A stretch of DNA of 64,000 nt from Phyllobacterium myrsinacearum (lineage in GTDB: Bacteria; Pseudomonadota; Alphaproteobacteria; Rhizobiales; Rhizobiaceae). This document shows, piece by piece, positions 25,309-29,250 of the stretch (within the stretch, counting starts at the first letter, position 1; every line of letters begins with the position of its first letter). Both the position numbers and the translations under genes were made by a program. Under the pieces are notes generated by a model, which saw only the letters and a program-made list of their open reading frames with translations, searched no databases and was not told the DNA's origin. Location of the stretch: positions 1 through 64,000 of the forward strand of contig NZ_PVBT01000003.1 in the NCBI RefSeq assembly GCF_002980555.1. Direction: 5' to 3'.

Positions 25309-26703
25309 TCAGACCTCGATCGTCTGCAGCGCCGCGGCGATCCGGGCTGCCAACCGCTCCGCCACCTCCTCTTTGCTCATGTCGGGCCATTCTTCGACGC
25401 CGGAACGCGTGACGATGCGCACGGCATTGCGGTCGCCGCCCATCACGCCGGTGGTGTGGCTGACATCATTGGCAACGATCCAGTCGGCGCCTTTCTTGTC
25501 GAGCTTCTTGCGCGCATTGGCGAGCAGGTCCTGGGTTTCCGCCGCGAAGCCCACAACAAGACGCGGCCGCTGTTTGCTGTGCCCGACCCCGGCAAGAATA
25601 TCGGGATTTTCCACCATCTGCAGGGCTGGCGCCGCCGCGCCCGGCTGCTTCTTGATCTTCTCGCCCGCCTCATTTGCCGTACGCCAGTCGGCGACCGCCG
25701 CAACCATGACCGCCGCATCGGCGGGCAGCAGCCGCTCCACGGCATCGCGCATGTCGCGGGCGGATTCCACATGGGTGACCGACACGCCCTCGGGGTCGGC
25801 AATGGTCACCGGCCCGGAGACCAGATGCACGGTTGCACCCAGCCGCGCCAGCGCAGCGGCGATGGCATGGCCCTGTTTGCCGGAAGAACGGTTGGCGATA
25901 TAGCGCACGGGATCGATGGGCTCATGCGTCGGGCCGGAGGTCATGACAATGGTCTTGCCGGCAAGCGGTTTTGGTCTCGAATCCAGCAGCGTTTCAATTG
26001 CGGCGACGATCTCCAGCGGTTCGGCCATGCGCCCGGCACCCGCCTCGCCGCTTTCGGCCATCTCGCCGCTGTTCGGCCCGACAAAGCGGATGCCGTCATT
26101 GGCAAGGGTCGTGCGGTTGCGCCGGGTTGCCGGATGCGCCCACATTTTCGGATTCATGGCCGGGGCGATCAGCACGGGCTTGTCGGTGGCCAGCAGCACC
26201 GCCGAGGCGAGATCATTGGCCAGACCGCCCGCCATTTTTGCCATCAGATCCGCCGTTGCCGGGGCAACGACAATGAGATCCGCTTCGCGGGACAGGCGGA
26301 TATGCCCGACATCGTGCTCGTCCTCACGGGAGAACAGGCCGGTGAAAACCTTGTCTGCGGCCAATGCACCGACGGACAGCGGCGTGACAAACTCCTCCGC
26401 TGCCTTGGTCAGCACCGGGCGCACATGCGCGCCGCGCTCGCGCAGGCGGCGGATGAGGTCGAGACATTTATAGGCGGCAATGCCGCCGCCGATGATGAGA
26501 AGAATATGCCGTCCGCCGAGCGATCCGGCTGCCAGTCCTGATGAGGGCGCCGGGACCTGGGTGATGGAAGGGCTGGCATGCAGATCCAGCGCTGCAAGGA
26601 GAAGGCGCACTTCCTCCTCCATCGACCGGCCATGGGCAGCGGCGCGCAGCCGCAGCTTTTCCTTGGTTGCGTCATCGAGATTGCGGATGGTGATGCTGGC
26701 CAT
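25309..26703 (-). CDS. coaBC: CoaBC with an N-terminal FitA-like RHH domain
   Basis: CoaBC makes 4'-phosphopantetheine from 4'-phosphopantothenate and cysteine for coenzyme A. Residues 1-42 form a ribbon-helix-helix domain (ASITIRNLDDATKEKLRLRA, then HGRSMEEEVRLLLAAL) like FitA/VapB antitoxins. A linker follows to about 65. The CoaC flavoprotein (66-240) has GGGIAAYKCLDLIR, H134 in GHIRLS and PAMNPKMW (181-188). Its clamp reads ESGEAGAGRM, with S218 where E. coli has the catalytic Cys. CoaB (about 247-464) is normal. The start at 26703 has GGAG upstream. No toxin gene is adjacent. It follows ubiB by 68 bp. Confidence 0.93.
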   Translation of the reverse strand: MASITIRNLDDATKEKLRLRAAAHGRSMEEEVRLLLAALDLHASPSITQVPAPSSGLAAGSLGGRHILLIIGGGIAAYKCLDLIRRLRERGAHVRPVLTKAAEEFVTPLSVGALAADKVFTGLFSREDEHDVGHIRLSREADLIVVAPATADLMAKMAGGLANDLASAVLLATDKPVLIAPAMNPKMWAHPATRRNRTTLANDGIRFVGPNSGEMAESGEAGAGRMAEPLEIVAAIETLLDSRPKPLAGKTIVMTSGPTHEPIDPVRYIANRSSGKQGHAIAAALARLGATVHLVSGPVTIADPEGVSVTHVESARDMRDAVERLLPADAAVMVAAVADWRTANEAGEKIKKQPGAAAPALQMVENPDILAGVGHSKQRPRLVVGFAAETQDLLANARKKLDKKGADWIVANDVSHTTGVMGGDRNAVRIVTRSGVEEWPDMSKEEVAERLAARIAAALQTIEV

Positions 26704-26755
26704 ATGATTGCACTCCGAGAACAAAGACTGCATAAAATGCAATCATTGCAATCAT
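26704..26755. promoter_or_regulatory. Three TGCAATCAT boxes before coaBC
   Basis: TGCAATCAT occurs as a perfect tandem pair (26738-26746 and 26747-26755) and once inverted (ATGATTGCA, 26704-26712), directly against the coaBC start codon. Short tandem and inverted half-sites of this kind are what ribbon-helix-helix dimers bind. Since CoaBC itself carries such a domain, autoregulation is a natural inference. Confidence 0.6.
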
Positions 26756-26771
26756 ATTAGCGCAGAAAATC

Positions 26772-28349
26772 TCAAAAAAGAAGCTTATAAGTGATGGCGA
26801 CCAGACAAACTGCAATCACCCCGAGAGCAATACGGCCAGAGCGTGTATGCCGCGCCTCCGCCTTGCCGATGGCCTTTGCCGTCTCGTCGTCGAAGCGGAA
26901 GCCCTGCTCCGCCATCCGGTCCATCTCCTTCGACAGGCGGTCAGCGCGCGCCACCAGTTCGGGCGCCTGACGGGCGAGGTGCAGCAGGGCACCCACACCC
27001 TCGCGCGCATCGCCAAGAATTCCCTGCGGGCCGAGATTGCGGCGGATCCAGTCGCCGACGACAGGTTCGGACGCTTTCCACATGTTGAAATGCGGATCGA
27101 GCGTGCGGGAGACGCCTTCCACCACCACCATGGTCTTTTGCAGCATGACCAGTTCCGGCCGGGTCTCCATGTCGAAAAGCTCGGTGACCTCGAACAACAG
27201 GGTCAGCAGCTTGGCCATGGAAATGGTTTCGGCGGGCTGGCCATGGATGGGCTCGCCAATGGCGCGGATGGCCTGGGCAAAACTCGCCACGTCATGGTGA
27301 TGCGGCACATAGCCCGCCTCGAAATGCACCTCAGCGACACGGACATAGTCGCGCGTGATGAAGCCGTAGAGGATTTCGGCGAGGAAACGCCGCTCCTTCT
27401 TGCCGAGCCGCCCGGTGATGCCGAAATCCACGGCAACAATATGCCCGCGATCATCGACGAACATGTTGCCGGGGTGCATGTCGGCATGAAAGAACCCATC
27501 CCGCAATGTGTGACGCAGGAAGGACTGGATCAGTGTTTCGGCAAGGCCGACAAGATTGTGGCCAGCGGCGCGCAGGCCATCGATATCCGACATCTTGATG
27601 CCGTCGATCCATTCGAGCGTGAGCACATCGCGCCCGGTGCGCTCCCAGTCGACAGTCGGCACGCGGAACCCCGGATCGTCCTTGGTATTCTCGCCGATTT
27701 CCGAAAGCGCGGCGGCTTCCAGCCGCAGATCCATCTCGATGCGCGTCGTCTGCGCCAGAGTGCGCGTCACTTCGATCGGACGCAGGCGGCGCGTGGCAGG
27801 CACGTAGCGCTCCTGCCACTTTGCCACGAGGAAGAAGCTTTCCAGATCATTGTTGAAGCGCTGGCGCACACCCGGACGGACAACCTTGACGGCAACCTTG
27901 CGGTCCTCGCCGCCCGTCCTGACATAGGCTGGATGGACCTGGGCGATGGATGCCGCAGCAATGGGTTCGCCGAGATTGACATAGAGATCGCCGACGGGAC
28001 GGCCGAGCGATCCCTCGATGGCCTTGACCGACGCTTCCATCGGGAAGAAATCCAGCTGATCCTGCAACAGCGCCAGATCGTCGGCCACTTCAGTGCCGAC
28101 GACATCGGGCCGCGTTGCCAGGAACTGGCCCAGCTTGACATAGGATGGCCCGAGCTTGTTGATGGCGCGCGACATGCGCTCGGAGCGGCGGGCCGTGCGG
28201 GCGCGCCGCCTTGCCAGTAGCCCGGCGATGCGGTGGCCGAATGCGGGAAGGCCGCTCAGGCCTTCGGCGGGCAGTGCGGAAATAACGCCTTCGCGCGTCA
28301 TGATCCATCCAGCCCGGATCAGGCGAAATGTTGCGGTAAACTTACTCAT
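26772..28349 (-). CDS. ubiB: UbiB, ABC1/ADCK-like atypical kinase for ubiquinone synthesis
   Basis: UbiB supports ubiquinone biosynthesis as an atypical protein-kinase-like ATPase at the inner membrane. The 525-residue sequence has the family's KLGQFLATRPDVV (KxGQ motif), the A-rich loop region EPIAAASIAQVH, and HADMHPGNMFVDD with VAVDFG as catalytic and metal-binding loops. The C-terminal hydrophobic segment (IALGVIAVCLVAITY) is the membrane anchor. It lies 8 bp behind ubiE and before coaBC, an order common in Rhizobiales. Confidence 0.96.
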   Translation of the reverse strand: MSKFTATFRLIRAGWIMTREGVISALPAEGLSGLPAFGHRIAGLLARRRARTARRSERMSRAINKLGPSYVKLGQFLATRPDVVGTEVADDLALLQDQLDFFPMEASVKAIEGSLGRPVGDLYVNLGEPIAAASIAQVHPAYVRTGGEDRKVAVKVVRPGVRQRFNNDLESFFLVAKWQERYVPATRRLRPIEVTRTLAQTTRIEMDLRLEAAALSEIGENTKDDPGFRVPTVDWERTGRDVLTLEWIDGIKMSDIDGLRAAGHNLVGLAETLIQSFLRHTLRDGFFHADMHPGNMFVDDRGHIVAVDFGITGRLGKKERRFLAEILYGFITRDYVRVAEVHFEAGYVPHHHDVASFAQAIRAIGEPIHGQPAETISMAKLLTLLFEVTELFDMETRPELVMLQKTMVVVEGVSRTLDPHFNMWKASEPVVGDWIRRNLGPQGILGDAREGVGALLHLARQAPELVARADRLSKEMDRMAEQGFRFDDETAKAIGKAEARHTRSGRIALGVIAVCLVAITYKLLF

Positions 28350-28357
28350 TCAGAACG

Positions 28358-29134
28358 TCACAATTTCCAGCCGGAATGCAGGGCAGCGATACCGCCGGTA
28401 AAGTTGCGCCAGCTCACCCGCTCGAAACCTGCCGTGCGGATCATCTCGGCGAAATCCGCCTGGCGGGGGAATTTGCGGATGGATTCCACCAGATACTGGT
28501 AGGAATCCGCATCCCCCGTGACCGCCTTGCCGATTTTCGGAATCGCATTGAATGACCAGGCGTCGTAAATCTTGTCGAGAACCGGCAATTCCACCTCGGA
28601 AAATTCCAGGCAGAGGAAGCGTCCGCCCGGCTTCAGCACGCGATAGGCTTCCGCCAGGGCGCGGTCGATATGCGGTACATTGCGGATGCCGAAGGCGATG
28701 GTATAGGCGTCGAAGCTGGCATTCTCGAATGGCAGTTCCTCGGCATTGGCTTCGACAAACTCGGTATTGTCGGCAAGGCCCTTTTTCGCCGCGCGGTCGC
28801 GGCCGACACCCAGCATCGAGCCGTTGATGTCGAGCACGGTGGCATGGGCATTGCGATTGGAGGCCTCGACGATGCGGAAGGCGATATCGCCCGTACCGCC
28901 GGCGACATCGAGTGTCTTCCAGTTCGACGTCTTGGACGGCGCAAGCCAGGCAATCATCGAATCTTTCCAGACGCGGTGCAGGCCGCCGGACATCAGATCG
29001 TTCATCACATCGTAGCGCTTGGCGACGCGATGAAACACGTCGTTGACGCGTGTCTGCTTTTCTCCGTCGCCGACATCCTGAAAACCGAAGGATGTTTCCA
29101 TGCCGCCATGGGCACCGGTGCGTTGCTGGCTCAT
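28358..29134 (-). CDS. ubiE: Demethylmenaquinone/2-polyprenyl-6-methoxy-1,4-benzoquinol methylase UbiE
   Basis: UbiE is the C-methyltransferase of ubiquinone synthesis. The 258-residue protein has the signature [25 protein letters not shown], the SAM motif [13 protein letters not shown], and the second UbiE signature [15 protein letters not shown]. The ATG at 29134 is used; the upstream frame adds 12 residues that are not family-like. It is the first gene of ubiE-ubiB-coaBC and divergent from add. Confidence 0.96.
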
Positions 29135-29250
29135 TGTGCTACCTGCTGATCTCTTTTGCGGGCGGAGCATAGAAGATTGAAACGCAGAAGGCTATTGTCT
29201 GTTGCGCGATGAAGCGACGCGCTGCACATTTTGTCGAATGGAGACCGCCC

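Follow-up and report, generated by a model that had tools for sequence, protein, structure and literature searches.

A FitA-like ribbon-helix-helix domain fused to the coenzyme A enzyme CoaBC, and a putative operator in front of its own gene, in Phyllobacterium myrsinacearum and relatives

The stretch of DNA analysed here, called the window, comprises 64,000 nucleotides of Phyllobacterium myrsinacearum. Its coaBC gene (25309-26703, minus strand) encodes, by translation, a protein of 464 amino acids. Residues 2-38 of this protein matched the FitA-like ribbon-helix-helix (RHH) family PF22513 of Pfam (E=1e-17; 64.2 bits against a gathering cut-off of 27), and residues 64-454 matched TIGR00521, coaBC_dfp, of NCBIfam with 404.5 bits against an equivalog cut-off of 219.7. 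Both CoaBC domains, PF02441 and PF04127, were found, and the Pfam families above the curated cut-offs were FitA-like_RHH, Flavoprotein and DFP only. The solved structure nearest to the RHH was FitA of N. gonorrhoeae (2h1o/2bsq, E ~1e-5), and the CoaBC part could be aligned with the M. smegmatis enzyme (6tgv, E=1e-79). With both profiles matched in one reading frame, the RHH-CoaBC fusion claimed by an earlier note on this DNA was borne out. The same holds for its statement that no PIN toxin gene is adjacent, the neighbours being ubiB and ubiE upstream and a gene for a GNAT acetyltransferase downstream. The genome holds one copy of coaBC. Phyllobacterium calauticae is the closest named relative, with a CoaBC that is 97% identical. 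The features of the locus are collected in Table 1.

Table 1. Features of the coaBC locus in the window
Feature	Position	Strand	Basis
CoaBC catalytic part, decarboxylase and ligase, residues 64-464	25312..26514	-	TIGR00521, PF02441, PF04127, 6tgv
Variable linker, residues 39-63, in place of the antitoxin's toxin-binding tail	26515..26589	-	Identity and length variation
FitA-like ribbon-helix-helix domain, residues 2-38	26590..26700	-	PF22513, FitA match, dN/dS 0.086
Operator-like dyad TGATTGCA (TGCAATCA on the coding strand), 1 bp before the start codon	26705..26712	+	
Ribosome-binding-site-like GGAG for the RHH start codon at 26701-26703	26713..26716	-	Putative, read from the sequence
Tandem operator-like site TGATTGCA-A-TGATTGCA, two dyads 9 bp apart	26738..26754	-	
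ubiB, upstream neighbour	26772..28349	-	PF03109 ABC1, E=2e-69
ubiE, precedes ubiB on the same strand	28358..29170	-	NF001242, 449.8 bits

The 68-bp gap between ubiB and coaBC contains the putative operator array. Three TGATTGCA/TGCAATCA sites were located in it, namely the tandem pair and the start-codon dyad, which sits between the GGAG and the ATG; a fourth lies at 26811, inside the end of ubiB. Across the whole window 7 half-sites were counted against 3.6 expected, which is not unusual, as 10 of 100 shuffles were as high. The putative operator signal is thus one of clustering, spacing and conservation, rather than of the window-wide number of half-sites. When the tandem pattern was searched in the 5.4-Mb genome with up to 2 mismatches, 8 places were obtained, and fewer than 2 mismatches occurred at coaBC only. 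Since the tandem site has no second match of that quality in its own genome, the likely target is coaBC itself. The inverted pattern, with a gap of 0-40 bp, was found at two places, the second within a predicted reading frame, where about one place is expected by chance (hand estimate). For these two patterns a regulon beyond coaBC was rejected, the other 7 tandem places all being at 2 mismatches and the second inverted place being near chance. The Rfam scan of 26600-26900 revealed no known RNA element. At 26726-26744 of the minus strand, shortly ahead of coaBC, a terminator-like hairpin overlaps the putative operator (1 found against 0.2 expected).

The earlier note had held that translation starting at about residue 60 would undo the fusion. 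Such a gene-call artefact is unlikely according to a comparison of 110 fused loci. At the canonical CoaBC start the window has no ATG, GTG or TTG, and the start codon of the RHH was ATG in 105 of the 110 loci, GTG in 4 and TTG in 1. From -14 to +2 codons of the CoaBC core, an ATG was present in 11 of these loci and any of the three codons in 59, at positions that were not conserved; these scattered codons may provide an extra internal start in some species. The residues that precede the core, RHH and linker together, amounted to 57-91 extra in the 110 loci. Judged from the sequences, the fusion is neither a gene-call artefact nor an oddity of a single strain.

The search of CoaBC proteins for an RHH, which the earlier note had proposed, was carried out at three levels. 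At the family level, 394 genomes were searched, the window's own included, and 385 matched. A fusion was counted when an unbroken match ran from residue 1 or 2 to 99-100 of an N-terminal query of 100 residues. By this rule, which misses long-linker forms such as those of G217 and G314, at least 88 of the 385 matching genomes and at least 28 of 109 genera carry the fusion. The carriers, many of them relatives of Phyllobacterium from soil and plants, include Phyllobacterium itself, Mesorhizobium, Pseudochrobactrum, Flavimaribacter, a Notoacmeibacter MAG and Brucella tritici, and at least 9 fusion genomes had a size of 1.4-2.4 Mb, most of them low in GC. The fusion is missing from many members of the family, and none was found in the Rhizobium, Ensifer/Sinorhizobium and Ciceribacter loci examined. 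At the order level (121 genomes, the best 30 places judged from DNA and the remainder from the match range), two further fusions were detected outside the family, both in one other family. At the class level (142 genomes, 104 matching), judged by match range, no fusion but the window's was found; in both of these searches a very divergent RHH could escape detection. In that other family of the order (L230, L236) the fused RHH is divergent (MASLTIRKLD), and upstream of the fusion TGATTGCA-N-TGCAATCA and palindromes with TGATAGCA were observed. One record titled Bacillus subtilis SK6B4 (L077) has a coaBC locus that groups with Pseudochrobactrum; the assembly is probably mislabelled or contaminated.

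The upstream regions of relatives were compared next to those of the window. An array of TGNNNNCA dyads, mostly in a 9-bp register, was found upstream of RHH genes at the coaBC site, and the fused type with serine as strand residue 3 of the RHH (Ser-3) showed the form TGATTGCA. Removal of CoaBC-core duplicates reduced 238 rows to 207. Sites within 120 bp, taken as one of the 8-mers named here or a 9-bp pair, were present in 135 of 138 RHH loci versus 0 of 62 RHH-less loci, 7 PIN-remnant rows being left out of this contrast. On the tree, RHH and sites yielded 12 supported independent pairs, with a mean of 11.6 concordant and 0 opposite (p ~0.0005). Among 89 non-redundant Ser-3 fused loci, 86 had TGATTGCA within 120 bp upstream, in 192 copies, against a mean of 0.4 and a maximum of 3 in shuffles. 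In L066 and L077, without sites in the 120 bp, TGATTGCA lies at -165 to -186; L168 shows no TGATTGCA, only a variant dyad. In L066 and L077, about 100 bp with an inverted repeat separates the operator array from the start codon of the fused gene. The dyad TGATTGCA is conserved across genera although the flanks diverge.

In the same 89 loci, TGNNNNCA occurred 290 times versus 35 in shuffles, and pairs at exactly 9 bp 95 times versus 0.1. The upstreams of 41 VapB antitoxins gave 145 occurrences, with 89 pairs at 9 bp, 56 at 18 and 30 at 27, which are contiguous arrays; such arrays would fit RHH dimers bound side by side. A 9-bp pair was present in 79 of 94 fused and 37 of 41 VapB upstreams. Control windows farther upstream of the fused genes (n=94) contained TGATTGCA in 0 cases and a 9-bp pair in 1. 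Five second tandem RHHs were excluded from the VapB tallies of the TGATTGCA scan, and both RHHs of those double-RHH loci from the tallies of TGNNNNCA and 9-bp pairs. These loci (L045, L047, L114, L125 and L151) have two tandem RHH genes, the second close behind the first, and then one PIN gene upstream of coaBC, a double-antitoxin operon.

The type of site was found to go with strand residue 3, a DNA-contacting residue. The dyad TGATTGCA was seen with Ser-3 in 88 of 92 cases and with other residues in 7 of 46, while TGACAGCA, TGACTGCA or TGCTAGCA was seen with a non-Ser residue in 44 of 46 and with Ser in 11 of 92. Corrected for descent, this match is represented by six supported pairs only, with median p values of 0.125 and 0.06. 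For 20 further fused loci tallied by hand, the exact 8-mer was present in 11 of 14 Ser-3 cases and in 0 of 6 others; the 9 without it had variant dyads at best, by eye. Where an antitoxin and a fused CoaBC occur together (L184, L203), each has its own site type.

Selection on the parts of the protein was estimated from relatives. In 29 disjoint pairs, dN/dS was 0.086 for the RHH versus 0.110 for the CoaBC core, and the pooled pN/pS over 1029 overlapping pairs was 0.318 versus 0.315. The median identity of the linker in the 29 pairs was 0.65 versus 0.94 for both RHH and core, and its length differed in 10 of them. By these substitution ratios, purifying selection evidently maintains the RHH and acts on it as strongly as on the enzyme.

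Taken with the arrays, this makes it likely that a bifunctional enzyme of CoA biosynthesis recognises an operator within its own promoter region through the RHH of a FitA/VapB antitoxin, and CoaBC probably represses its own promoter. Alternatively, the RHH could be a relic or structural tail, and the array an inactive old antitoxin operator or one that belongs to another regulator. The many lineages without the RHH fit this, neither RHH nor PIN being present in 38 of 181 unique family loci. However, selection on the RHH resembles that on the essential enzyme, array and RHH were gained and lost together, the fusion was retained in reduced genomes, and the dyad outlasted its flanks across genera. 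A relic is therefore quite improbable.

Binding to the array could also serve another end than repression. No sigma-70-like promoter was found in 26650-26860, and since the gap lacks a promoter consensus, activation in place of repression is possible. The RHH might then be an activator, might mainly block transcription that arrives from ubiB, or might act on translation via the start-codon site. In 46 of the 89 Ser-3 fused loci only 1 bp lies between the last TGNNNNCA site and the start codon, and coaBC lies close behind ubiB on the same strand, both of which would suit such roles. RHH proteins contact duplex DNA, however, which argues against a direct action on mRNA. Moreover, PutA and VapBC29 are described as controlling their own promoters, PutA by repression (PMC5293562, PMC6118392). 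We regard activation, roadblock or a translational effect as unlikely, and autorepression by CoaBC is preferred in what follows.

The origin of the RHH was traced in 80 relatives, 29 loci from the family search and 100 further family regions, 209 loci to which the window was added. These 210 loci comprised 110 fused, 46 with separate RHH plus PIN, 43 with neither, 6 with a C-terminal PIN piece and 5 with RHH and no PIN-profile match; they were chosen by similarity to the window protein, so that the class counts are not prevalences, and many of the records come from a genome that another record also represents. In 2 of the 110 fused loci (L184, L203) a separate RHH and PIN pair is also present, upstream of the fused CoaBC. 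Among the 46 loci with RHH plus PIN, L041 and L128 gave small matches only and were treated as remnants. UbiB was upstream in 187 of the 210 loci. For loci that have UbiB upstream, ubiB and coaBC were 27-194 bp apart when neither domain was present (28 loci) and 232-380 bp apart in 99 of 101 fused loci (the other two at 1274 and 1501). In the class with RHH plus PIN the distance was 708-1132 bp in 44 loci of 46, the two remnants being at 240.

In relatives, an intact FitA/VapB-PIN pair lies between ubiB and coaBC. Two loci have the appearance of pairs caught in fusion. In L133 the antitoxin part shares 52 of 68 residues with the antitoxin of L054, where the pair is intact; L133 lacks the PIN gene entirely and also the antitoxin gene's end, and the remainder is in frame with coaBC. 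In L112 an almost complete antitoxin continues into coaBC, at the place where a PIN gene stands in the sisters L035 and L118. The L112 antitoxin has low identity to those of the sisters (43 of 80 residues and 40 of 77), so the pair that was lost may have been a different one. An antitoxin-like tail behind the fused RHH was recognised, by eye, in L112 and L133 only. The RHH was apparently taken over from a toxin-antitoxin pair, to judge from these junctions.

The fusion was also mapped on a tree of CoaBC plus UbiB (109 rows, rooted on other families), as the earlier note had suggested. The deepest clade of the family is wholly fused, and one clade of 54 rows mixes fused, paired and empty loci. 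A single origin for all fusions was rejected, since the tree needs 12 changes of the fused state, 11 of them forced by supported branches. A simple reading would be an old Ser-3 fusion that was repeatedly lost, with repeated arrival of toxin-antitoxin pairs in the same place and fresh fusions formed from them. The direction of change is not proven, and gene exchange at the locus is likely.

Several further forms of the junction were observed. In L035 and L118 the end of the PIN gene that adjoins coaBC is near-identical, and the remaining antitoxin and toxin are strongly different, as if cassettes had been exchanged by recombination anchored at the coaBC side. The remnant loci L037, L113, L138, L144, L174 and L185 retain a C-terminal PIN piece. 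Four of the five loci with RHH and no PIN-profile match have a PIN of another sort between RHH and coaBC, recognised by Pfam in L120 and L131 and similar by eye in L163 and L183. With this other sort of PIN at the same junction, RHH-PIN pairs appear to have landed in the ubiB/coaBC gap repeatedly.

An RHH of such descent might have kept its old role, with CoaBC still countering PIN toxins or their operators as an antitoxin or anti-addiction factor. PIN toxins do occur within the same family, and the window's own genome retains an RHH-PIN pair elsewhere. However, the window RHH has no antitoxin-like tail behind it. In addition, fused RHHs and linked antitoxins differ in site type, even when adjacent in L184 and L203, which argues against cross-talk. 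A surviving antitoxin role is scarcely credible.

The earlier note had offered a captured antitoxin or a DNA-binding enzyme as alternatives, and the evidence favours both at once. Capture is supported by the intact RHH-PIN pairs at the ubiB/coaBC junction and by the PIN loss and antitoxin fusion in L112 and L133; DNA binding is suggested by the operator-like array that accompanies the RHH and is absent from 62 of 62 RHH-less loci. Its further idea, that CoaBC reports flavin, cysteine or CoA state to transcription, is speculative and rests on analogy with PutA and on the control of mycobacterial CoaB by CoA thioesters.

A possible mechanism can be outlined. Mycobacterial CoaBC is reported to be a dodecamer whose CoaB is inhibited by CoA and its thioesters (PMC7794376), and FitAB to bind DNA as an octamer via two RHH motifs (PMC3384007), with inverted-repeat halves of 8 nt (PMC6118392). 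In the fusion, two RHHs would pair into a DNA-binding dimer, and oligomerisation of CoaBC would replace the PIN toxin in gathering several such dimers for cooperative binding. Occupation of the array would repress coaBC, by which CoaBC would limit its own synthesis. Speculatively, binding of substrate or CoA could alter the affinity for DNA. A broader proposal is tentative: a selfish toxin-antitoxin module lodged before an essential gene may have become a homeostat, in which the enzyme replaced the toxin as multimerising partner and an assembly gated by CoA, acyl-CoA or cysteine reads CoA demand into its own transcription. This would have happened more than once, with operator specificity shifted for insulation from resident toxin-antitoxin pairs. 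Autoregulation varies among VapBC systems: of those tested, VapBC29 is described as controlling its own promoter, and VapBC1 and VapBC27 of M. tuberculosis as showing no auto-regulation (PMC6118392).

Enzymes that also control transcription of their own pathway include BirA, NadR and similar proteins, which have other DNA-binding folds and other enzyme activities. Closer to the fusion is PutA, a flavin-dependent metabolic enzyme described as repressing its own gene by means of an N-terminal RHH and as moving to the membrane on reduction by proline (PMC5293562). The window CoaBC is a different enzyme, without proline dehydrogenase and P5C dehydrogenase domains, and acts in CoA synthesis, whereas PutA is catabolic; a toxin-antitoxin origin of PutA is not mentioned in the part of that source drawn on here. 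On the best reading of the sequences, CoaBC would work like PutA, yet be built from a toxin-antitoxin module. With FitAB and VapBC it shares the PF22513 RHH family, the repeated short dyads upstream and, in relatives, intact pairs at the same locus. It differs from them in that an adjacent PIN toxin and a toxin-binding tail are absent, the RHH is joined to a housekeeping enzyme, and the prevailing dyad of the fused type is TGATTGCA instead of TGACAGCA/TGCTAGCA. As for standard CoaBC (Dfp), the full two-domain enzyme is present and aligned to the M. smegmatis dodecamer, and the N-terminal extension is the difference.

By what route toxin-antitoxin modules come to benefit their hosts is a standing question. 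At this locus an empty site, an intact pair, a decayed pair, a fresh-looking fusion and a widespread fusion with its own site type can be seen side by side. On the present reading, an essential enzyme of a large bacterial family is predicted to have a form that binds DNA, and feedback on transcription in CoA synthesis becomes open to direct test. In the open-licence literature no paper was found that combines CoaBC with ribbon-helix-helix or phosphopantothenoylcysteine with antitoxin, nor one with Phyllobacterium and coaBC, and an earlier description elsewhere is possible; a survey of type II systems (PMC2701414) does not use 'pantothen' or 'flavoprotein' in its main text. Over residues 3-52, the fused domain has 48% identity to the RHH-PIN pair elsewhere in the window's genome (L002, contig C2 near 374720).
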